Of a stretch of 41,200 bases of DNA, positions 11,909-39,381 are shown piece after piece. How positions within the stretch are numbered: the stretch's first letter is position 1; each line of letters opens with the position of its first letter. Source of the DNA: Bryobacteraceae bacterium (GTDB lineage: Bacteria; Acidobacteriota; Terriglobia; Bryobacterales; Bryobacteraceae); assembly GCA_025055455.1 (NCBI GenBank), contig JANWXD010000017.1:37866-79065 (forward strand), in the 5' to 3' direction. A model generated the notes under the pieces. That model saw nothing but the letters and a program-made list of their open reading frames with translations. It made no database searches and was not told the origin of the DNA. Both the position numbers and the translations under genes were made by a program.

Positions 11909-12832
11909 ATGGAACAGAGGCCTGCGGAATCGAGGCCACCGAAGGCTTCCCGGCGCCGGTTTTTCCGCGCGCTGGCGAGCATTGGCGCGGGCGGGGCCAG
12001 CGCCTGCGGCGGTTTGAAGGCTCTCTCATCGCGGCGCGCAGAAGCCGCCCCGATTCCGCCGCCATCGGCACGGACACGGGGCGAGGAGCTGCTGCGCATG
12101 CAACAGGACCTTGACCAGACGCTTGCAAGCGGCCAGCCGCCCAGCTGGCTCATGGTCGTCGACACACGCAAATGCATCGGCTGCGACGCTTGCACAGTGG
12201 CCTGTCGGGCCGAGGTCCCGACCGGGCCAGCCGGCAGCATCCGCCGCGTCATCAAGCTGGAGCTGTCGCTCGGCTCGCGGCAGTGGGCCATCTTCAAACC
12301 CATCAACTGCCTCCACTGCGACGACCCGCCGTGCGCCAAAGCGGTGCCGAGCGGGATGATTCGCAAGCGCCCGGACGGCATCGTCGAGCTCCGCCTCGAC
12401 CTCCTCAAGGGGCCCTATGCCATGGCGGCGGCCGCCGCCTGTCCGGTCAAGGCCATTCACATCGACAACGGGGCGACGTTCACGCAGTCGACTCCTGCCC
12501 CGCAGGCCTACGAGGCGCGGAGCTTCGTCGAATACGGGAGCATCTACAGCCGCGATCCGGCCACGACCCGTCTGAAGGACACGGCCCGCAAGTGCACCTT
12601 CTGCGCGCACCGGCTGGAGGCGGGCATGTTGCCGGCATGCGTGACCACCTGCATCACCGGGGCGATGTATTTCGGCAATCTGAACAATCCCAACAGTTTC
12701 CTGCATGAACTCATGCCGGACCGGCGCATCTTCGCAAAGCACCAACACATGGGGCTCAAACCACGGGTGATCTACTTCGAGGAACCCATCCCCGAGGCCG
12801 AACATCTGGATTGCGCAGCTTGTCACTCGTAA
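11909..12832 (+). CDS. Tat-exported FeS subunit of a molybdopterin oxidoreductase, three-cluster type with C-terminal CxxCH
   Basis: 307 residues. SD AGAGGAGG (11896-11903) precedes the ATG. A twin-arginine signal SRRRFFRALASIG leads to SACGG at Cys33, a possible Tat lipoprotein site. Ligand motifs are CIGCDACTVAC (Cys89, 92, 95, 99), CLHCDDPPC (134, 137, 142), Cys178 in AACPVKAI, and CTFC...CVTTC (229, 232, 244, 248). In DmsB/TtrB-type four-cluster proteins a further cluster uses the last Cys of motif II and the first three of motif III. Here those positions are Val146, Gly168, Ala171 and Ala174, so exactly one cluster is absent and twelve ligands remain for three clusters. The protein ends DCAACHS, a c-type heme motif. 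It passes electrons to or from the catalytic subunit encoded 11 bp downstream. Confidence 0.9.
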   Translation: MEQRPAESRPPKASRRRFFRALASIGAGGASACGGLKALSSRRAEAAPIPPPSARTRGEELLRMQQDLDQTLASGQPPSWLMVVDTRKCIGCDACTVACRAEVPTGPAGSIRRVIKLELSLGSRQWAIFKPINCLHCDDPPCAKAVPSGMIRKRPDGIVELRLDLLKGPYAMAAAAACPVKAIHIDNGATFTQSTPAPQAYEARSFVEYGSIYSRDPATTRLKDTARKCTFCAHRLEAGMLPACVTTCITGAMYFGNLNNPNSFLHELMPDRRIFAKHQHMGLKPRVIYFEEPIPEAEHLDCAACHS

Positions 12833-12843
12833 GGAGGGAGGTC

Positions 12844-15800
12844 ATGGCCGAGACGGTAACCGGCAGCACGCCGCAAGGCGGCAGTGAGCTCTGCCCGCGA
12901 CGGCAGGTCCTTTCCAGTGGGGTTCTGCTGGGCGGCGCCTGGCTCGCAGCAGCGCTCAAAGCAGCTCAGCAGGCGGGGGCCAGGGCGCCGGCGCGAGCTT
13001 CCGACTACATCTACACGACTTGCTTGCAGTGCAACACCGGCTGCGAAATTAAGGTCCGGATTCAGGACGGGCTGGCCGTCAAGATCGAGGGCAACCCGTA
13101 CGCGCCGCGGACCATGGACCCTCACATTGATTGGAACACGCCGGTGTCTGAGGCCGCGCGCCTGGCGGGATACCTATGCCCGAAGGGGCAATCCGGCATG
13201 CAAAGCGCCTACGATCCGTACCGGATCACCAAGGTCCTCAAGCGGGCCGGCAAGCGAGGCGAGAACCGTTGGGTCACCATCCCGTTCGATCAGGCCATCA
13301 CGGAGATTGTGGAGGGTGGGGTGTTGTTTCCCCAGGACGGCGGCAAGCGCGTGACGGGTCTGCGGGAGCTCTACGCCCTCCGCGATCCGGCCTTGGCGCA
13401 ACAGATGGCGGCCGACGTGGCGCGCATCCAGGATGGGCGGCTCACGGTGGCCGAATTCAAAGAGAAATACAAAGATCACTTGGACAAGCTGATCGACCCG
13501 GACCATCCCGATCTCGGCCCCAAGAACAATCAATTCGTATTCTTATGGGGGCGGCTGAAGGCCGGCCGTTCGGACTTTTTCCTCCGGTTCGTGCGGGACA
13601 GTTTCGGCTCGGTCAACGCCCACGGCCACACCACCGTTTGTCAGGGCTCGATTTACTTTGCCGGCAAGTCCATGGCGGACCAGCCGAGCGGTGGCACCTG
13701 GACGGGAGGAGCGAAAGCTTACTGGATGGCCGACACCAGCCACGCCGAGTTCATCATCTACTGGGGCGCCAACGCGCTCGACGGCAACTATGGTCCGCCG
13801 CTCAAGGCGCCCAAGATCCTGCGGGGTCTGGCGAGCGGTCGCCTGAAAATCGCGGTGGTGGATCCGCGGCATTCCACCATTGCCGCCAAGGCGTGGAAAT
13901 GGGTGCCGGTCAAGCCCGGTGAAGACGCCGCGCTGGCGATGGCGATGATCCGCTGGATCATCGAAAACGAGCGGTACGACAGACGCTATTTGCAAAACTG
14001 CAACCGCGCCGCTGCCACGGCCGACGGCGAGCCGACCTGGACCAACGCTGCTTGGCTGGTCAAGATCCGCCCAGACGGCTCGGGCGGGGCGTTCCTGCGC
14101 GCCTCCGAAATCGGCTTGGGCGGAGATGCGGACACCTTCGTGTGCTTGCGCGCCGGTAGGCCCGTGGCCTTCAAGTCCGACGATGCGGCGAACGCCGTGG
14201 AGGGGGAGCTGTTCGTGGATACGACGCTCGGCTCGTTCCGCGTCAAGTCCGCCCTGCAGTTGCTGTACGAGGAGGCCGCGCAGAAGACCCTCTGGGAGTG
14301 GGCCGAAATCGCTGGTGTCCGATTGGCGGACATCGTGGCGCTGGCGCGAGAATTCACCTCCCATGGCAAGCGGGCCGTCGTGGAAATACACCGGGGTGTC
14401 TCTCAGCACACCAACGGCTTCTACAACACGCTGGCTACGCTGTGCGCACTCAACCTGTTGATCGGGAACTTCGACTGGACAGGCGGCCTGGTGTACGGGG
14501 CCGGCGCGTACGGCGAAAGCGGAGGGACCGGGCGGCCGTTCCAGCTGAGCAGCCACCCGGCCCGGTTGACTCCGTTTGGGATCGACATCATCCGCGGCGG
14601 CGCCACTTACGAAAAGAGCACCATTTTCTCCGGCTATCCGGCCAAGCGTCCCTGGTATCCGCTGGCGAGCGACGTTTATCAGGAAGTGATCCCCTCCGCG
14701 GGTGATGCTTACCCGTATCCGATCAAGGTGCTGTTCCTGTACATGGGCTCGCCGGTTTACGCTTTGCCGGCGGGACACTCGCTCATCCCCACTTTGTTGG
14801 ACACGGACAAGATCCCCCTGTTCGTGTGCTCCGATATCGTGGTGGGCGAAACGACTCGCTATGCGGACTACATCTTTCCGGACCTGTCGTTCCTGGAACG
14901 GTGGGAGTTTCACCGGACCCATCCGTCGATCGTGCACCGGGTCTCGCCCGTGCGCCAGCCCGCCATCGCTTCGCCCAATGAGACCGTGCGGATCTACGGC
15001 GAGGAGATGCCCATCTCGATGGAGGCGGTGTTTTTGGCGATTGCCGAACGGCTCGGGCTTCCCGGCTTCGGCCCCGGAGGTTTTGGCACAGCCGACCTCC
15101 GCCGCCCGGAAGATTTCTATCTTCGAATGGTGGCCAATGTCGCCTTCGGCGATTCCAGCACGGGTGCGGACGTATGCCCGGACGCCAGCGACGAAGAGGT
15201 GGCGATCTTCCTCGAGGCGCGCCGGCACCTGCCCCGCTCCATGTTCGACCCCGACCGCTGGGCGGCGGTCGTGGGACCCCAGTGGTGGCGGAAGGTGATC
15301 TACGTGCTGAACCGCGGCGGCCGCTGGTGGCCGTACGAATATGCTTGGACTGGCGAGCAAGTGCGGGCGAAGTTCGGAAGGCTCGTAAATCTGTATCAGG
15401 AGAAGCCTGCCCTCACGCGCAACTCGATGACGGGCGAGTTCATGAAGGGCATTGCGACCTATGTCCCCGTGGCGGACGCGCTGGGGCAGCCACTCGACCA
15501 CAAAGGGGCGCCGCTGACGCTCATCACGCACCGGAGCATGCTGGCTACCAAGAGCCGGACCATCTCCAACTACTGGCTGACGCACATTCAGCCCGAAAAT
15601 TACATCTACATCAACCCCCGCGACGCCGCACAGCTTGGGTTGCGCAACGGCGACATGGTCACGGTTGTGTCGGCGAGCAATCCCGACGGCGCCTGGAATC
15701 TCGGACACGGCGCCATCAAACCGCTCCGAGGCCGGATCCAGATCACTTCCCGGATCCGCGTCGGCGTCATCAGCTTCGAACTGGGCTGGGGCCACTGGTC

Positions 15801-15981
15801 CTACGGCGCCGAGGATCTCATCATCGACGGCCGGAAACTTCCTGCCGATCCGCGCCGGGCGGCGGGCATCCATGCCAACTCGGCCATGTACGTGGACCCG
15901 TACCTGCGTTCGCCGCTCAGCGACGTGGTGGGCGGTAGCGCGGTCTTCTACGACACGAAGGTGTATCTGGTGCGGAGCTGA
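12844..15981 (+). CDS. Molybdopterin oxidoreductase catalytic subunit (TtrA/SrdA/PsrA-like)
   Basis: 1045 residues. The ATG at 12844 follows AAGGAGGGAGG, which starts at the upstream stop codon. The N-terminus has a twin-arginine-like signal (PRRQVLSSGVLLGGAWLAAA). A [4Fe-4S] site is formed by Cys60, 63, 67 and 112 (CLQCNTGC, LCPKG). Cys266 in HTTVCQGS is the probable Mo/W ligand, followed by the bis-MGD domains (IIYWGANALDGNYGPPLK, VDPRHSTIAAKAW, ADYIFPDLSFLERWEF) and the C-terminal cofactor-closing domain (THRSMLATKSRTISNYWLT). Length and the LGPKNNQFVFLWGR insert resemble tetrathionate/selenate/polysulfide-reductase relatives of the DMSO reductase family. The substrate is not decidable by eye. 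No NrfD-like anchor or TorD-like chaperone is adjacent, so the dimer is probably soluble or lipid-tethered outside the membrane. Confidence 0.9.
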   Translation: MAETVTGSTPQGGSELCPRRQVLSSGVLLGGAWLAAALKAAQQAGARAPARASDYIYTTCLQCNTGCEIKVRIQDGLAVKIEGNPYAPRTMDPHIDWNTPVSEAARLAGYLCPKGQSGMQSAYDPYRITKVLKRAGKRGENRWVTIPFDQAITEIVEGGVLFPQDGGKRVTGLRELYALRDPALAQQMAADVARIQDGRLTVAEFKEKYKDHLDKLIDPDHPDLGPKNNQFVFLWGRLKAGRSDFFLRFVRDSFGSVNAHGHTTVCQGSIYFAGKSMADQPSGGTWTGGAKAYWMADTSHAEFIIYWGANALDGNYGPPLKAPKILRGLASGRLKIAVVDPRHSTIAAKAWKWVPVKPGEDAALAMAMIRWIIENERYDRRYLQNCNRAAATADGEPTWTNAAWLVKIRPDGSGGAFLRASEIGLGGDADTFVCLRAGRPVAFKSDDAANAVEGELFVDTTLGSFRVKSALQLLYEEAAQKTLWEWAEIAGVRLADIVALAREFTSHGKRAVVEIHRGVSQHTNGFYNTLATLCALNLLIGNFDWTGGLVYGAGAYGESGGTGRPFQLSSHPARLTPFGIDIIRGGATYEKSTIFSGYPAKRPWYPLASDVYQEVIPSAGDAYPYPIKVLFLYMGSPVYALPAGHSLIPTLLDTDKIPLFVCSDIVVGETTRYADYIFPDLSFLERWEFHRTHPSIVHRVSPVRQPAIASPNETVRIYGEEMPISMEAVFLAIAERLGLPGFGPGGFGTADLRRPEDFYLRMVANVAFGDSSTGADVCPDASDEEVAIFLEARRHLPRSMFDPDRWAAVVGPQWWRKVIYVLNRGGRWWPYEYAWTGEQVRAKFGRLVNLYQEKPALTRNSMTGEFMKGIATYVPVADALGQPLDHKGAPLTLITHRSMLATKSRTISNYWLTHIQPENYIYINPRDAAQLGLRNGDMVTVVSASNPDGAWNLGHGAIKPLRGRIQITSRIRVGVISFELGWGHWSYGAEDLIIDGRKLPADPRRAAGIHANSAMYVDPYLRSPLSDVVGGSAVFYDTKVYLVRS

Positions 15982-17711: not shown

Positions 17712-18728
17712 ATGGTTCGGACAGCCACGATAGCCGGACTTGTTTGGGCGCTCGGTTCGGCGGCCATTGGGGCGGAATGGCTCGTGCAACCCGATGATCG
17801 GAGCGACCGGGGCGGGGCGCAGGACGCGCGCGTGACGATCGTTCCCCGGCCGAAACCCCGCAGTGCGGACGACGGACCGCGCGCCGCCAACATCCGCGTG
17901 GATACCAACCTTGTCCTCATCCCGGTGACGGTGACCGATCCGATGAATCGTTTCGTCACGGGTTTGGAGAAAGAGCACTTCCGCATCGAGGAGGACAAGG
18001 TCGAACAAACGATCACGCACTTTGCCAGCGAAGATGCGCCGCTTTCGATCGGCATCGTGTTCGATACGAGCGGCAGCATGGGCGCCAAGCTCCAGAAGTC
18101 GCGCATGGCCGTGGCGCAGTTCATGAAGACCGCCAATCCGGAGGACGAATTCTTCCTGGTTCAGTTCAGCGACCGGCCGGAACTGGTGGTGCCCTTCACC
18201 ACGGACACCGAAGAGATCCAAAACCGCCTGGCCTTCACCCAGTCGAAAGGAAGAACGGCGCTGCTCGACGCCATTCACCTGTCCTTGCACGAAATGAAGC
18301 GGGCGCGGAATCCGCGGAAGGCCCTTCTGATTATTTCCGACGGCGGCGACAACAGCAGCCGCTACACGGAGAGCGAAATCAAGAACCTGGTGCGCGAAGC
18401 CGACGTGCAGATCTACGCCATTGGCATCTTTGAACCGATTTACTCGCGCGGGCGCACTCCGGAAGAGTTGGCCGGACCGGGCTTGCTGTCCGAAGTCGCC
18501 GAGCACACCGGAGGCCGTCACTACGCCGTGGAGAATCTCAACGATCTGCCGGATATCGCCGCGAAAATCGGCATCGAGTTGCGCAACCAGTACGTGCTCG
18601 GTTACACGCCGACCAATCAGCAGCGGGACGGCAAGTACCGGCGCGTGCGTGTGCGACTGATCCAGCCGAAAGGCCTTCCTCCGCTGCGGGCTTTCTGGCG
18701 AATGGGATATTATGCTCCGACTCAATAA
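17712..18728 (+). CDS. Secreted VWFA-related protein (acidobacterial VWA family), copy 1
   Basis: 338 residues: signal peptide (TATIAGLVWALGSAAIGA), a ~50-residue variable stretch, then IRVDTNLVLIPVTVTDPMNR, GLEKEHFRIEEDKVEQTITH and a von Willebrand factor A domain. The MIDAS is intact: DTSGSMG at Asp118, Thr in GRTALLDAI, and ISDGGDN. The C-terminus (LRNQYVLGYTPTNQQRDGKY, then YRRVRV) is typical of the acidobacterial VWFA-related family. MIDAS domains bind a divalent metal and a protein ligand; the family function is unknown. The second copy starts 17 bp before this stop, so the two are coupled. An extended -10 promoter lies at 17671-17679. Confidence 0.9.
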   Translation: MVRTATIAGLVWALGSAAIGAEWLVQPDDRSDRGGAQDARVTIVPRPKPRSADDGPRAANIRVDTNLVLIPVTVTDPMNRFVTGLEKEHFRIEEDKVEQTITHFASEDAPLSIGIVFDTSGSMGAKLQKSRMAVAQFMKTANPEDEFFLVQFSDRPELVVPFTTDTEEIQNRLAFTQSKGRTALLDAIHLSLHEMKRARNPRKALLIISDGGDNSSRYTESEIKNLVREADVQIYAIGIFEPIYSRGRTPEELAGPGLLSEVAEHTGGRHYAVENLNDLPDIAAKIGIELRNQYVLGYTPTNQQRDGKYRRVRVRLIQPKGLPPLRAFWRMGYYAPTQ

Positions 18729-19656
18729 TTGGCTGGGGCCAGCGCTGGCGGCCGCGGTCTTGTGCCCCGCCCAGGAAACTCCCGTATTTCGGGCAGAAAC
18801 CCGCTTGGTGCTGCTTCATGCCAGCGTGGTGGACCGGCAAGGACGGCTGCTCGTCAACCTTCCGCAAAAAGCGTTCCGAGTCTACGAGGACGGCGTCGAG
18901 CAACAAATCAAGCTGTTCCGGCGCGAGGACATTCCTGTCTCCATGGGCTTGATTATCGACTCGAGCGGCAGCATGCGCGACAAGCGCCAGAAGGTGGAAA
19001 AGGCCGCCTTGGCCCTCGTGAAGGCCTCCAATCCCCAGGACGAGGTGTTCATCGTCAATTTCAACGACGAGGCGTATCTGGACACACCCTTCACCAATGA
19101 CATCGCGAAGATGGAGGAAGGACTGTCCCAGATCGACTCCCGCGGCGGAACGGCGATGCGGGACGCCATCAGCCTGGCCATCGATTACATCAAGGAAGAA
19201 GCCAAGCTGGACAAGAAGGTGCTCGTGGTGATCACCGACGGCAACGACAATACGAGCGCGATTCCTCTGGAGCGGTTGGTCAAGAAGGCGCATGACAGCG
19301 AAGTGCTCATTTACGCCATCGGGCTGCTGAGCCAGGAGGATCGGCGTGAGGCCAAACGCGCCAAGCGGGCGCTGGACGCTCTGACGTCGGCTTCCGGCGG
19401 TTTGGCCTACTACCCGAGGGAGCTCGACGAAGTCCACCAGATCGCCTTGCTGGTCGCCCACGAAATCCGAAATCAGTACGTGATCGGTTACACCCCGTCG
19501 CGGCAGGAGCTGGACGGAAGCTTCCGGCAGATCCGCGTCACGGTGGACGCGCCCGGACGGCCCACGGTGCGCACGCGAAGCGGCTATTACGCGACGGCGG
19601 AGAGCCCGCGAAAGGTGTCCTCGTTCCGCTCCGGTCGGGAGATCGGCTCCCGATAG
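18712..19656 (+). CDS. Secreted VWFA-related protein (acidobacterial VWA family), copy 2
   Basis: 314 residues with signal peptide (LNNWLGPALAAAVLCPAQ) and the same architecture as its neighbour: TRLVLLHASVVDRQGRLLVN, FRVYEDGVEQQIKLF, and a VWA domain with intact MIDAS (DSSGSMR at Asp83, GGTAMRDAI, ITDGNDNT), ending IRNQYVIGYTPSRQELDGSF. It overlaps copy 1 by 17 nt, so it is translated from the same message. The two proteins differ over most of their length but share all domain landmarks, so this is an old tandem duplication. They might pair as a heterodimer, an inference from the coupling. The stop TAG is immediately followed by the ATG of the 64-residue ORF. Confidence 0.9.
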   Translation: MLRLNNWLGPALAAAVLCPAQETPVFRAETRLVLLHASVVDRQGRLLVNLPQKAFRVYEDGVEQQIKLFRREDIPVSMGLIIDSSGSMRDKRQKVEKAALALVKASNPQDEVFIVNFNDEAYLDTPFTNDIAKMEEGLSQIDSRGGTAMRDAISLAIDYIKEEAKLDKKVLVVITDGNDNTSAIPLERLVKKAHDSEVLIYAIGLLSQEDRREAKRAKRALDALTSASGGLAYYPRELDEVHQIALLVAHEIRNQYVIGYTPSRQELDGSFRQIRVTVDAPGRPTVRTRSGYYATAESPRKVSSFRSGREIGSR

Positions 19657-34017: not shown

Positions 34018-34357
34018 GCTGCGGAGCAAGGTGAATTTCGTGCGAGGGAGAACTACGGGAAGACCAGGCGGCTGAGCTACCGGAAGCAGCACTCGGCGGG
34101 TGGTGCCCCCAAGCAGGTCCGTAGTCGGAGAGGGTTCTGACGCCGTTTTGCCACGCCGGTGCGGTGGCGGCGATCTCGATCGCGCCCTTCCTTTGGTGAG
34201 CCTCGTTTCCTGAGAATGGCCGCCGCGGGGTGCAGACAGCGCGCACGTGCTAGGCAGCCGCTGCTCCGATGCGCGGCCTGCATGCAGGGCTTCCCGCATT
34301 GTGAAAGAATGCCATAGAGGCAGGGGCGATACGGTGTGGTGCGGGGAGTGTCAGCAG
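34018..34357 (+). other. Gene-free stretch between phr and the first TonB receptor
   Basis: About 340 bp without a supportable gene. It holds a near-palindromic hairpin at 34166-34186 (GGC, bulge, GCGATC/GATCGC, GCC) followed by CTTCCTTT, which might end the phr transcript, and a leader motif at 34202-34227 that recurs before the second receptor. No clear -10/-35 pair and no riboswitch that I can recognise are present. Confidence 0.4.
34202..34227 (+). repeat. Leader motif copy 1 (upstream of TonB receptor 1)
   Basis: CTCGTTTCCTGA-GAA-TGGCCGCCGCG. The same two blocks recur at 36999-37025 with TCGT as spacer. Copy 1 lies 131 bp before the receptor start. It is either a shared regulatory site or the edge of the duplicated unit. 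Confidence 0.55.
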
Positions 34358-36580
34358 GTGGGGTGGCGCCGGGCCCGGTCCCACTTGGGAGGTTGGGGAA
34401 TAACCCGATCGTTCCGCCTACTGGCGTTCAGCGTAGCCTTCGTGCTCGGCGAACCAGCCCTTACGGGCCAGCCCCCAGGTGTCCTTCGCGGCACGGCGCG
34501 GCTTCAGGAAACGAACGAGCCGTTGCACGGTGTGAGCGTGCTCATCGTGAAGCTGGGCCGCACGGTTCAGACAGCTCCGGACGGAAGCTACGAGTTTCGC
34601 GACGTGCCGCCCGGCACCTACGAAGTTCTCGCGCACATGCATCTGCTGGCCGACGAGCGGCGTACGGTGGAGGTGCCGCCGGGCGGGGTGGCGGTCTTGG
34701 ATTTGCAACTCCGTTTGGCTCCGGTCCACCAAGAGATCACGGTCACGGCTTCCGGCAGAGAGCAGACCACGCTCGAGGCCTTTCAGTCGGTCGCGACACT
34801 GGGCCAGTTGGAGTTGGCGCCTCGCCTGGCCGCCTCCTTGGGCGAAGCGCTGGCCGACCAGGGTGGGGTAGCCAAGCGGAGTTCCGGGCCCGGCACGAGC
34901 CGGCCGGTCATCCGGGGTTTCGACGGGGACCGGGTGCTGATCCTGCAAGATGGACTGCCGACGGGGACGCTGTCGTCGCAGTCGGGGGATCACGGCGAAC
35001 CGGTGGACTTGAGCGCGGCGGAGCGGGTCGAGGTGGTGCGGGGGCCGGCGACTTTGCTCTATGGCCCGAACGCGATCGGCGGAGTCGTGAATGTGGTCTC
35101 TGGTCACCATCTGGTGCACCAGCACCCGCATGAAGGGGTGCGGGGCTATTGGAACGCCAGCGCCGGCACCAACAACCGACATGTGGGCGGGGGTGCGGGT
35201 TTCGAGTTCGGGCGAAGGGACTGGCTGCTGTCCGGCAGCGGGAGCGGGCTGCGGACAGGGGACTACCGCGCGCCGTCGGGCACGGTGAACAATTCGGCGA
35301 CGCGCGCAGCACACACGGCCGCGGGTGTGGGCCGCTATCGCGAGCGCGGGTTCTTTCGGCTGGACTACGGATTGGGCGATGGCCGCTACGGGATTCCGGA
35401 GGTTCCATTTCTCGACGCGGGGCCGGTCGACATTCGCTGGCAGCACCACAGCCTGCGATTCCACGGATCGCTCCGGCAGCCGGGCGCCGCGCTGGCGGAG
35501 TTTCGGCTTTATGCAGCATACACCGACTGGCGACATAGCGAACTCACTCAAGGTGAGACGAGTCTGCGCGCGGCCAACCGCCAGCTCAGCTACCGCGGCG
35601 TCTGGGAGCAGCGGCCTGCGGGGCGCGTGTCGGGCCGGTTTGGCATTTCGGGTGTGCGGCGCGCCTACCGGACGGAGGGTGGGCAGCGGCTGGCCCCCCC
35701 GGTGAGGCAGGATGGCCTGGCGGGGTTCGTCGTGGAGGAGCTTTCCCTCGAGCCGGTGCAAGTGCAGTTCGGAGCGCGCCTGGATGCGATGCGATACCAT
35801 CCGGAGGGCCGCTCCAACCGCTGGTTCACGGGGCTTTCTGCTTCGGTGGCGGTGCGGGCGCCGCTTTGGGACAACGGTGCGGTGGCGGCCTCCTACAACC
35901 ACTCCTTCCGGCCACCCGCTCTCGAAGAGTTGTACAACGACGGGCCCCATCCAGGTCACCTCACCTTCGAAATCGGGGATCCCCGCTTGAAGGCGGAACG
36001 CAACAACGGCGTCGACCTGACGATGCGGCACGTCGGCAACCGCCTGCGGGGGGACGTGAGCCTGTTCTACTACCGGATAAGCGGTTTCATTTTCCTGGCG
36101 CCGACCGGGCAGTTTCGGCACGGGTTGGTCGAGGCGCGATATCGGCAGGGCGCAAGCCGCTACACGGGGGCGGAAGCGCGCACCGCGGTGCGCCTAGGCG
36201 GTGAGGTGTGGCTGAAGCTGGGGATGGATGTCGTGGATGCGCAGTTGCGCGCGGGCCCCTCGCCTCTGCCGCGGATTCCGCCGGCGCGAGGAAAGATCGG
36301 CCTAGACGTGCATGTCGGTGGCTTCGGGATCGAGCCGGAAGTCGTCCTCACCAATGCTCAGCGGCAGACCTTCTCGACGGAGACGCCGACGGCAGGATAC
36401 GCCGTGTGCAACCTCAGCGCCGCCTACACGCGAGCTAGTTCCCGTCGCTTGCACCGGTTCACATTCACACTTTTCAACGCTGCCGATCGGCTCTACCGCA
36501 ACCACGTTTCGCTGATCAAGGACTTCACACCCGAGATCGGGCGCGGCGTGCGGTTCACTTACGCTTTGCGAGTGTTTTGA
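34358..36580 (+). CDS. TonB-dependent receptor, ZnuD-like, copy 1
   Basis: 740 residues if the GTG at 34358 is used; a GTG at 34334 is also possible and the start is uncertain. A hydrophobic export signal (SFRLLAFSVAFVLGEPALTG) is followed by a carboxypeptidase-regulatory-like beta-domain (VLRGTARLQETNEPLHGVSV, DGSYEFRDVPPGTYEVLAHM), the plug (RPVIRGFDGDRVLILQDGLP, SGDHGEPVDLSAAERVEVVR, GPATLLYGPNAIGGVVNVV) and a 22-strand-type barrel ending RGVRFTYALRVF (terminal Phe). A His-rich segment, GHHLVHQHPHEG, follows the plug. The SGDHG...AERVEVVRGPATLLYG pattern is that of ZnuD-like receptors, so zinc or another divalent metal is the likely cargo. It is closely related to copy 2, nearly identical in the plug. 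Confidence 0.88.
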   Translation: MGWRRARSHLGGWGITRSFRLLAFSVAFVLGEPALTGQPPGVLRGTARLQETNEPLHGVSVLIVKLGRTVQTAPDGSYEFRDVPPGTYEVLAHMHLLADERRTVEVPPGGVAVLDLQLRLAPVHQEITVTASGREQTTLEAFQSVATLGQLELAPRLAASLGEALADQGGVAKRSSGPGTSRPVIRGFDGDRVLILQDGLPTGTLSSQSGDHGEPVDLSAAERVEVVRGPATLLYGPNAIGGVVNVVSGHHLVHQHPHEGVRGYWNASAGTNNRHVGGGAGFEFGRRDWLLSGSGSGLRTGDYRAPSGTVNNSATRAAHTAAGVGRYRERGFFRLDYGLGDGRYGIPEVPFLDAGPVDIRWQHHSLRFHGSLRQPGAALAEFRLYAAYTDWRHSELTQGETSLRAANRQLSYRGVWEQRPAGRVSGRFGISGVRRAYRTEGGQRLAPPVRQDGLAGFVVEELSLEPVQVQFGARLDAMRYHPEGRSNRWFTGLSASVAVRAPLWDNGAVAASYNHSFRPPALEELYNDGPHPGHLTFEIGDPRLKAERNNGVDLTMRHVGNRLRGDVSLFYYRISGFIFLAPTGQFRHGLVEARYRQGASRYTGAEARTAVRLGGEVWLKLGMDVVDAQLRAGPSPLPRIPPARGKIGLDVHVGGFGIEPEVVLTNAQRQTFSTETPTAGYAVCNLSAAYTRASSRRLHRFTFTLFNAADRLYRNHVSLIKDFTPEIGRGVRFTYALRVF

Positions 36581-37131: not shown

Positions 37132-39381
37132 ATGGTGTCTTCTTCTATGTTCCGACACTTCCTGCCACGGCAGGCTGCATGCTATGGTCGGTTTGGGCAA
37201 AGAAAAGGATGGATGCGGGGCGTGGCGTTGACTCTGGCGCTGGCGCTGGGCGGGCCGGCGGCAATGGCGCAAACTTCCGGCGTGCTCCGGGGTACGGCCA
37301 GATTCGAAAGGAACGACGCCCCGTTGCATGATGTCAGCGTGCTGATCGTCAAACTGGGCCGCAGTGTCAGGACGGCTCCGGACGGGAGCTACGAGTTTCG
37401 CGACGTCCCGCCCGGCACCTACGAGGTCGTGGCTCATATGCATCCGCTAACCGACGAGCGCCGTACGGTGGAGGTGCCGCCCGGCGGGGTGGCAGTTCTC
37501 GATTTTCAGCTCCGTTTAGCTCCGGTCCACCAGGAGATCACAGTGACAGCCTCCGGCAAGGAGCAGACCACGCTGGAGGCAATTCAGTCGGTGGCCAGCT
37601 TGGAGCAGCTCGAGCTGGCACCGCGCCTGGCGGCCTCCCTGGGGGAGGCGCTGGACAACCAGAACGGCGTAGCCAAGCGGAGCTTCGGGCCGGGCAGCAG
37701 TCGGCCCGTGATCCGGGGCTTTGACGGGGACCGGGTGCTGATCCTGCAAGATGGGCTGCCGACGGGGACGCTGTCGTCGCAATCGGGCGATCATGGCGAA
37801 CCGGTGGACTTGAGTGCGGCCGAGCGGGTGGAGATCGTGCGGGGGCCGGCTACGCTGCTGTACGGTCCGAACGCGATCGGCGGCGTGGTGAATGTGATCT
37901 CCAGCCACCATCTCATTCACCAACACCCGCACGAGGGGGTACGCGGCTACGTCAACACCAGTGCGGGATCGAACAACGGGCTCGCCAGCGGGGGGGCAGG
38001 TTTCGAGGTTGGTCGAGGGGACTGGCTGGTCTCAGGCAGCGGGAGCGGGCTGCGGACGAGGGACTACGGTACGCCGTTGGGCAAAGTCCGGAATTCGGCG
38101 ACGCGAGCAACACATACAGCCGCGGGGGTGGGCCGCTATCGGGACCGCGGATTCTTCCATGTGGAGTATGGACTCGGGGATGGCCGCTACGGGATTCCGG
38201 AGGTTCCCTTCCTGGAAGAGGGGCCGGTAGACATCGGCTGGCGGCACCATAGCGTGCGGTGGAATAGCACGCTGCGGCAACCGGCCTCGGCGCTGCCCGA
38301 GTTCCGTCTCCATGCGGCATACACGGACTGGAGGCACCACGAGATCGGTCACGACGACCATGGGACACGGCTCTCCAACCGCCAGTTCAGCTACCGGGGC
38401 GTGTGGGAGCAGCGCACGTGGGGCCGACTGTCCGGCCGGTTCGGGTTCTCGGGTCTCCGGCGCGCCTATCGGGCTCGGGGAGAAGAGCAACTCGCGCCTC
38501 CGGTGACGCAGGACGGCATCGCGGGATTCTTCGTCGAAGAGCTGTCGCTGGAGCCCGTGCAAGTGCAATTGGGGGCGCGATTCGATGCAACGCAGTATCG
38601 CCCCGAGGATCGCCCGAGGCGGTGGTTCAAAGGTTTTTCCGGAAACGTTGCCATCCGCGCGCCGCTTTGGACCAACGGTGCGGTGGCGGCTTCTTACAAC
38701 CACTCGTTCCGGCCGCCGGCTCTCGAGGAGTTGTACAATTACGGCCCACACCCAGGCAATCTCGCTTACGAAATCGGCGATCCCGACTTGAAGCCGGAGC
38801 GGAACGACGGCCTCGAGGTCGCGGTGCGGCATGCGGGGAGTCGGCTTCGGGGAGACGTGAGCCTGTTTTATTACCGCATGAGCGATTTCATCTTTTTGTC
38901 GCCTACCGGGGAGTTCGAGCATGGGTTGATCGAGGCGCGGTACCGACAGGGCGCCAGCCGCTATATGGGCCTCGAGGCGCGTGCCGCTTTCGGTTTGAGC
39001 CGTGACGTGTGGCTCAAGATCGGCATGGACGCCGTGGACGCGCAGCTGCGGGAGACCCGGATGCCTCTGCCGCGGATTCCTCCCGTGCGGGGCAAGATCG
39101 GGCTAGATGTGCACTTTGGCGGCTTTGGTTTCGAGCCGGAGCTGGTGCTGGCCAATGCCCAAAGGCAGACGTTTCTGACCGAGACGCCGACCCCGGGATA
39201 CGCCGTGTGGAATTTCAGCGCCTCGTACACGCGCGCGAGCACGCATTTCTTGCATCTGTTCTCCGTGAGCGTCTTCAACGCCGCCGACCGGCTCTACCGC
39301 AATCACCTGTCGTTGATCAAGGACTTCGCACCGGAAATCGGTCGCGGCGTGCGCTTCACTTACAGCATGAGATTTTTCTGA
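37132..39381 (+). CDS. TonB-dependent receptor, ZnuD-like, copy 2
   Basis: 749 residues. The ATG at 37132 has a strong SD (AAGGAGGAGG). The signal region ends GVALTLALALGGPAAMAQ. Domains follow the same order as copy 1: regulatory-like beta-domain (DGSYEFRDVPPGTYEVVAHM), plug (GFDGDRVLILQDGLPTGTLS, then SGDHGEPVDLSAAERVEIVR), His-rich SHHLIHQHPHEG, and barrel with terminal Phe (FTYSMRFF). DNA identity in the plug is very high, lower in the extracellular loops (for example HHEIGHDDHG here, RHSELTQGET in copy 1). The loop differences suggest altered ligand or phage contact, while the shared plug keeps TonB coupling. The AlkP-superfamily gene starts 15 bp downstream and is probably on the same message. 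Confidence 0.92.
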   Translation: MVSSSMFRHFLPRQAACYGRFGQRKGWMRGVALTLALALGGPAAMAQTSGVLRGTARFERNDAPLHDVSVLIVKLGRSVRTAPDGSYEFRDVPPGTYEVVAHMHPLTDERRTVEVPPGGVAVLDFQLRLAPVHQEITVTASGKEQTTLEAIQSVASLEQLELAPRLAASLGEALDNQNGVAKRSFGPGSSRPVIRGFDGDRVLILQDGLPTGTLSSQSGDHGEPVDLSAAERVEIVRGPATLLYGPNAIGGVVNVISSHHLIHQHPHEGVRGYVNTSAGSNNGLASGGAGFEVGRGDWLVSGSGSGLRTRDYGTPLGKVRNSATRATHTAAGVGRYRDRGFFHVEYGLGDGRYGIPEVPFLEEGPVDIGWRHHSVRWNSTLRQPASALPEFRLHAAYTDWRHHEIGHDDHGTRLSNRQFSYRGVWEQRTWGRLSGRFGFSGLRRAYRARGEEQLAPPVTQDGIAGFFVEELSLEPVQVQLGARFDATQYRPEDRPRRWFKGFSGNVAIRAPLWTNGAVAASYNHSFRPPALEELYNYGPHPGNLAYEIGDPDLKPERNDGLEVAVRHAGSRLRGDVSLFYYRMSDFIFLSPTGEFEHGLIEARYRQGASRYMGLEARAAFGLSRDVWLKIGMDAVDAQLRETRMPLPRIPPVRGKIGLDVHFGGFGFEPELVLANAQRQTFLTETPTPGYAVWNFSASYTRASTHFLHLFSVSVFNAADRLYRNHLSLIKDFAPEIGRGVRFTYSMRFF

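Follow-up and report, generated by a model that had tools for sequence, protein, structure and literature searches.

A TtrA-like molybdoenzyme of Acidobacteriota whose iron–sulfur subunit lacks the ligands of one cluster and ends in a putative heme c motif

In a 41,200-nucleotide stretch of a Bryobacteraceae genome (hereafter the window), a forward-strand gene (11909..12832) encodes a 307-residue β subunit, a TtrB/NrfC/PsrB-like iron–sulfur protein with predicted ligands for three [4Fe-4S] clusters and a CxxCH at its C terminus (C302, C305 and H306; 12812..12826, forward strand) that is a putative attachment site for heme c. Read directly from the sequence, residues 15–47 (RRRFF ... AAA; 11951..12049, forward strand) form a putative twin-arginine signal whose R15 and R16 are invariant in a nine-row alignment; C33 lies inside this signal peptide. 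The four cysteine motifs that follow, all on the forward strand, are unequally preserved: motif I (C89–C99; 12173..12205) and motif IV (C229–C248; 12593..12652) are complete, motif II (12308..12346) keeps C134 (codon 12308–12310), C137 and C142 and has V146 in place of its fourth cysteine, and the remnant of motif III (residues 166–178; 12404..12442) has C178 (codon 12440–12442) as its sole cysteine. In NarH and FdnH, motif I usually pairs with motif IV and motif II with motif III, so the 12 remaining cysteines (C89/92/95/99, C134/137/142, C178 and C229/232/244/248) would make up three complete [4Fe-4S] sites. An earlier reading of this DNA, made from the sequence alone, had described just this arrangement, from V146 and the solitary C178 to the 12 cysteines for three clusters, and each element is present as it stated. 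An AlphaFold2 model of the mature subunit built from the single sequence reached a mean pLDDT of 37.9, too low for use.

Eleven bases downstream lies the gene for the α subunit (12844..15981, forward strand), a TtrA-like molybdopterin oxidoreductase with a twin-arginine motif, the FS0 cysteines C60/C63/C67/C112 and, at the expected place, a cysteine (C266; 13639–13641, forward strand) that is the putative molybdenum ligand. These five residues are invariant in all 17 α sequences that were aligned, and the Pfam models Molybdopterin (α) and Fer4_11 (β) match above their cut-offs. The pair thus shows, as predicted from sequence, the hallmarks of complex iron–sulfur molybdoenzymes (CISMs): the FS0 and molybdenum-ligand cysteines in α, and in β motifs I, II (three cysteines), III (one cysteine) and IV.

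The arrangement is not peculiar to this genome. We assembled a set of 27 β sequences, comprising that of the window and 26 relatives from genomes of the same phylum, Acidobacteriota. A search of 101 genomes (the window's own plus relatives) yielded nine orthologues, its own included, at 53–100% identity, with the loss common to all nine; six more, from five other families, were read among the best 30 matches when 396 genomes of the phylum were searched with a profile; and a search of 237 genomes of the family gave 21 matches at E values of at most 1e-50, of which 12 were new. A class-level search of 399 genomes returned 11 matches, each already in the set. Beyond it, a scan of contigs with the single protein as query brought up just one distant formate-dehydrogenase-type β subunit, from Chloroflexi (L021), and a scan of viral contigs with β found no relative. 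The α gene follows β at 26 of the 27 loci, the contig of the remaining one (G576) stopping 640 bases past β. It is incomplete at four loci, being partial in G050 and G552, where a contig or region end cuts it, and present as two open reading frames in G327 and G597. The split genes, at L062 (G327) and at L113 in the one-contig genome G597, may reflect breakage or an assembly error.

Across the 27 sequences the 12 retained ligands are invariant, and positions 146, 166–171 and 174 are never cysteine, position 146 being Val in 25 and Ala in two. The sequence-only reading had assigned the lost motif III ligands to G168, A171 and A174 by the usual spacing back from C178. These positions are indeed non-cysteine throughout, but alignment with four-cluster relatives reveals a two-residue insertion in this stretch and places the first lost cysteine at L166. 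No other cysteine takes over: apart from the ligands, only C302 and C305 are conserved in all 27, and the strays are confined to single sequences (L060 at 105 and 213, L062 at 250, L104 at 111). The loss is therefore concerted, as had been proposed, with the same four ligands absent and the other 12 kept throughout. Four identical absences in 27 separate genomes exclude chance, or a sequencing error that had masked the cysteines, and we likewise rejected pseudogene decay of β because the pattern is conserved across these genomes. Relatives within the tail-bearing clade share 43–62% identity with the window's β subunit, and the joint retention of loss and tail over so large a divergence points to function.

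For comparison we used 33 other β subunits, 30 from the phylum and three plasmid-borne relatives. Motif III is readable in 32; L051, in which it is masked, was omitted from the motif count and from the tree. In 30 of the 32 the set of four ligands is complete; in two (L042 and L044) only the second motif III cysteine is missing. These two, other NrfC-type subunits from G105 and G229, have the motifs CGGAQEC and CCGTRAC, as in [3Fe-4S] subunits. A tree of 44 rows was built after removal of columns 146 and 163–177. The 15 tail-bearing rows known when it was made are separated from all others by a branch supported at 100/98, and one change suffices to explain the trait. Ligand loss and tail gain fall on the same branch, so their correlation counts as a single event.

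In all 27 subunits the CxxCH, the signature of c-type cytochromes, stands 0–7 residues from the C terminus. C302, C305 and H306 are invariant, and the remaining tail columns, including the two x residues, vary. None of the 33 comparison subunits has a terminal CxxCH; where the string occurs internally, as it does in a few places, it belongs to an iron–sulfur motif. Cytochrome c assembly genes (PF01578) occur in 15 of the 15 tail-bearing genomes tested. We infer that the tail probably carries a covalently bound c heme, although CxxCH is a motif and not proof of heme, and heme would have to be attached to the tail of a Tat-exported protein that also bears clusters. Another explanation for the same residues, which we consider unlikely, is that the C-terminal Cys-Cys-His binds a metal, rebuilds a cluster with Cys2His ligation or forms a disulfide, with heme absent and electrons leaving at FS3 or at a non-heme centre. 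It would account for the appearance of two cysteines and a histidine in the very clade in which four cysteine ligands vanished. However, in all 27 sequences the order and spacing are exactly those of CxxCH, with variable x, the canonical site for heme c. The histidine would be superfluous in a disulfide, and there is no fourth conserved cysteine.

Which cluster disappeared can be read from its ligands. In PsrB, QrcC, ActB and NarH-type subunits, the cluster on the side of the membrane subunit is bound by the last cysteine of motif II and the first three of motif III. Judged by this ligand set, it is the quinone-proximal cluster of NrfC/PsrB-type subunits that has been lost. In its treatment of alternative complex III, PMC8076601 places the quinone site close to the motif II/III cluster, which is a [3Fe-4S] cluster there. 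PMC13059093 describes Y113 of QrcC as essential and as lying between two cysteines of the proximal cluster, with Ala at that place in Thermus thermophilus PsrB. As motif III of Thermus PsrB reads CIACGAC in an alignment of PDB chains, Y113 would fall at the tyrosine of CxxCxYC, the segment of the quinone-proximal cluster that is missing from the motif III remnant throughout the tail clade. Four outgroup subunits encoded beside an NrfD gene (L066–L069) read CIGCRYC, and two outgroups with no NrfD (L070 and L071) have Ser at the Tyr place (CIGCGSC and CIGCESC).

The membrane partner is missing as well. None of the 27 loci has an NrfD gene (PF03916) near β: 25 show no match on the β contig, and in the other two, both one-contig genomes, the nearest lies more than 380 kb away. 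NrfD genes are present elsewhere in all 27 genomes. Among the six nearest loci with four clusters, four (L066–L069) have the gene directly adjoining β. It also lies beside β in the three plasmid relatives that were inspected, two of them from haloarchaea and one from Sporomusa. The other two four-cluster loci, L070 and L071, have the order β-α and no NrfD on the contig, and group on the tree with the NrfD-linked outgroups at a modest support of 82/77. These features of the locus, namely the absent NrfD, the terminal CxxCH and the quinone-proximal nature of the lost cluster, had escaped the sequence-only reading, whose account of a concerted loss leaving three clusters otherwise holds.

One could suppose that the cluster was simply lost once the anchor had become dispensable. 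A soluble carrier would then take electrons from FS3, and the tail would have some other function, for instance in docking or in α–β assembly. The lack of NrfD near any of the 27 loci fits this idea, as does the existence of a three-cluster β subunit in the pyrogallol–phloroglucinol transhydroxylase of Pelobacter. Simple loss leaves the invariance of C302, C305 and H306 amid variable neighbours to be explained, and L070 and L071 retain four clusters in the absence of an adjacent NrfD, so loss of the anchor and loss of the cluster are separable. We regard simple loss as improbable.

The neighbourhood of α offers a further clue. At two of the 27 loci (G327 and G453) a decaheme cytochrome of the DmsE type, scoring above the TIGR03508 cut-off, continues the operon after α. 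The product of the gene after it gives a weak MtrB_PioB match in G327 (23.3 bits against a cut-off of 23) and in G453 has 693 residues and no family match; in G420, an open reading frame with six CxxCH motifs follows α. In 25 genomes the decaheme is not adjacent. A TIGR03508 protein above the cut-off is encoded somewhere in all 27 tail-bearing genomes, compared with two of five outgroup genomes. Another contig of the window's genome than that of β carries at L085 (G000:C56, 3724–9883) an OmcA/MtrC-family decaheme (505 bits) and a DmsE-family decaheme, then a 654-residue open reading frame with no NCBIfam match and one of 365 residues with four CxxCH motifs, which together are possibly an extracellular electron-transfer conduit. 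These findings support, without proving, cytochrome partners for the tail-bearing enzyme.

Taken as a whole, we think it likely that this is a periplasmic, TtrA-like αβ molybdoenzyme in whose β subunit a heme c at the C terminus has taken the place of the quinone-side cluster, and that electrons pass through this heme to or from periplasmic cytochromes. The αβ enzyme is probably soluble. It would derive from a quinone-linked βγα enzyme resembling TtrBCA or SrdBCA, in which the quinone-proximal [4Fe-4S] cluster of β (ligands C1–C3 of motif III and C4 of motif II) disappeared together with the quinone-site Tyr and β acquired a short tail ending in CxxCH, leaving an operon without NrfD. Electrons would then run along the chain Mo–FS0–FS1–FS2–FS3–tail heme, replacing FS4 and the quinone; the tail, presumably held near FS3, would reach with its heme into the periplasm and trade electrons with c-type cytochromes, in some species with the adjacent DmsE/MtrA-type decaheme. 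Flow could be in either direction: arsenite exported by ACR3 may be oxidised and its electrons given to cytochromes, or cytochromes may drive reduction of an oxyanion. The steps up to FS3 are predicted from conserved ligands, and the heme step is suggested by the CxxCH, by the lack of an NrfD anchor and by the cytochromes encoded nearby. The sequence-only reading had proposed a distinct electron route, which appears to have been the right idea given the concerted loss, the ligands for three clusters and the conservation in all 27 sequences. The clade has the appearance of a natural experiment in redox-enzyme rewiring, with the quinone-side cluster, the Tyr and the anchor gone and a heme c motif in the same clade. 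How a CISM switches between quinone and cytochrome partners is a long-standing question, and one that a single mutation in a 15-residue tail could address.

Several known systems resemble this enzyme in part. To tetrathionate reductase (TtrBCA) and selenate reductase (SrdBCA), of the Cys-coordinating TtrA/SrdA/alternative arsenate reductase clade, it is linked by its best matches (TtrA and TtrB), by the cysteine at the molybdenum-ligand place and by the twin-arginine motifs; two Acidobacteriota-type outgroups (L066 and L068) have the gene order β-NrfD-α, which is that of ttrBCA. The tail-bearing enzyme differs in having no adjacent NrfD/TtrC, one β cluster fewer and a C-terminal CxxCH. With NrfC, PsrB and ArrB its β subunit shares the architecture of motifs I–IV, and its best solved relatives are PsrB (2vpw_B, 93 bits) and ArrB (6cz7_B, 81 bits), but with 16 ligands those subunits also hold the quinone-proximal cluster. 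NarH, EbdB and PcrB, in which one substituted cysteine leaves a [3Fe-4S] cluster, are altered in the same ligand set, as is ActB. Motif III reads CRGWRMC in NarH, CKGHRHC in EbdB, CKGAQAC in the β chain of 4ydd and CIGTRYC in ActB (6f0k), the second cysteine being replaced by Trp in the NarH chain and by Thr in that of ActB, for which a [3Fe-4S] cluster is likewise described in PMC8076601. In all of these a single ligand is affected, whereas the tail-bearing subunits are without all four. In Shewanella, a molybdoenzyme is wired to an outer-membrane conduit in the DmsEFABGH/MtrCAB system, which the DmsE-family decaheme right after α in G327 and G453 recalls; here, in contrast, the CxxCH tail is on the enzyme itself, there are no DmsAB-type subunits, and 25 of the 27 loci lack the adjacent decaheme.

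The Pelobacter transhydroxylase, whose β subunit holds three [4Fe-4S] clusters and is a detectable homologue (chain 4v4c_B), bears on a suggestion of the sequence-only reading, that the enzyme might be non-redox or internally redox-neutral. Three clusters and the absence of a membrane anchor would suit such a role. Other features of the tail-bearing enzyme argue against it: α is TtrA-like, with C266 at the molybdenum place and the FS0 cysteines conserved in all 17 sequences aligned; α and β alike have a twin-arginine motif; and two operons include a decaheme. The transhydroxylase, in contrast, is listed in PMC10100899 as cytoplasmic and Ser-coordinating. We therefore find this role very improbable and reject it on the α features.

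The best NCBIfam matches are TtrA for α (504.1 bits, cut-off 1750) and TtrB for β (110.5 bits, cut-off 416), and TtrA is also the best α match at six further loci spanning tail clade and outgroups (466–509 bits against the same 1750). Scores for respiratory arsenate reductase likewise stay below the cut-offs (ArrB 91.7 of 450 bits, ArrA 103.6 of 1600). For tetrathionate reductase, then, scores fall below the cut-off, TtrC/NrfD is not adjacent and β has ligands for three clusters instead of four. The enzyme is thus a variant of the CISMs that stands outside the tetrathionate, arsenate and transhydroxylase families, since the defining features tested for each are absent. Our searches of the open-licence PMC literature brought up no description of a protein of this kind. 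PMC10100899 places TtrA in one group with SrdA and with an alternative arsenate reductase, and also mentions a novel sister lineage.

Our best guess for the substrate, and the leading candidate, is an arsenic oxyanion. In six of the 27 genomes, from three families (G611, G327, G005, G453, G026 and G560), an ACR3 or ArsC-like gene is found no more than 10 kb from β. Random placement would predict 0.23, a figure that treats genes as independently placed although clustered genes and related genomes are not independent, and that comes from a test made after some of the loci had been seen. The ArsC-like matches are all below the curated cut-off (none of the 27 genomes has one above it), and an ACR3 match above the cut-off occurs within 10 kb of β in only two of the 27 (G327 and G611). 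A pattern scan of the window's own locus found no arsenic genes, and its genome contains no ACR3 match. According to PMC9751042, a TtrA of Pyrobaculum aerophilum has been hypothesised to act as an arsenate reductase, which we take as a lead only. The alternative arsenite oxidase discussed in PMC6620896 was considered and set aside; the candidate named in that discussion is SoeABC, which belongs to another family.

Speculatively, then, these genes might represent a third arsenic redox route in addition to Aio and Arr/Arx. A TtrA-like enzyme of the periplasm would oxidise arsenite or reduce arsenate, a single C-terminal heme c would stand in place of the quinone-proximal cluster, and MtrA-type decahemes would lead on to an outer-membrane conduit, coupling arsenic to extracellular electron transfer. 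If the arsenic link is true, surveys of soils and sediments that use the marker genes aioA, arxA and arrA would miss this enzyme.

Some further features were noted in passing. ArsC-like, ACR3, ArsR, ArsM and ArsP genes occur close to tail-bearing β genes at L061, L062, L024, L026, L118 and G560:C191, and the four-cluster, NrfD-less β-α pair at L070 (G213) is flanked by ArsC-like, aquaporin-like, ArsR-like and ArsA-like open reading frames, recognised by pattern and by eye. Elsewhere in the window, a tandem pair at 17712–18728 and 18712–19656 encodes VWFA proteins that each match TIGR03436 (acidobact_VWFA) at 233 bits, a match that points to Acidobacteriota as the phylum of origin. Two clearly similar tandem open reading frames (34247–36580 and 37132–39381) resemble TonB-dependent receptors with a carboxypeptidase-like N-terminal domain, again judged by eye.
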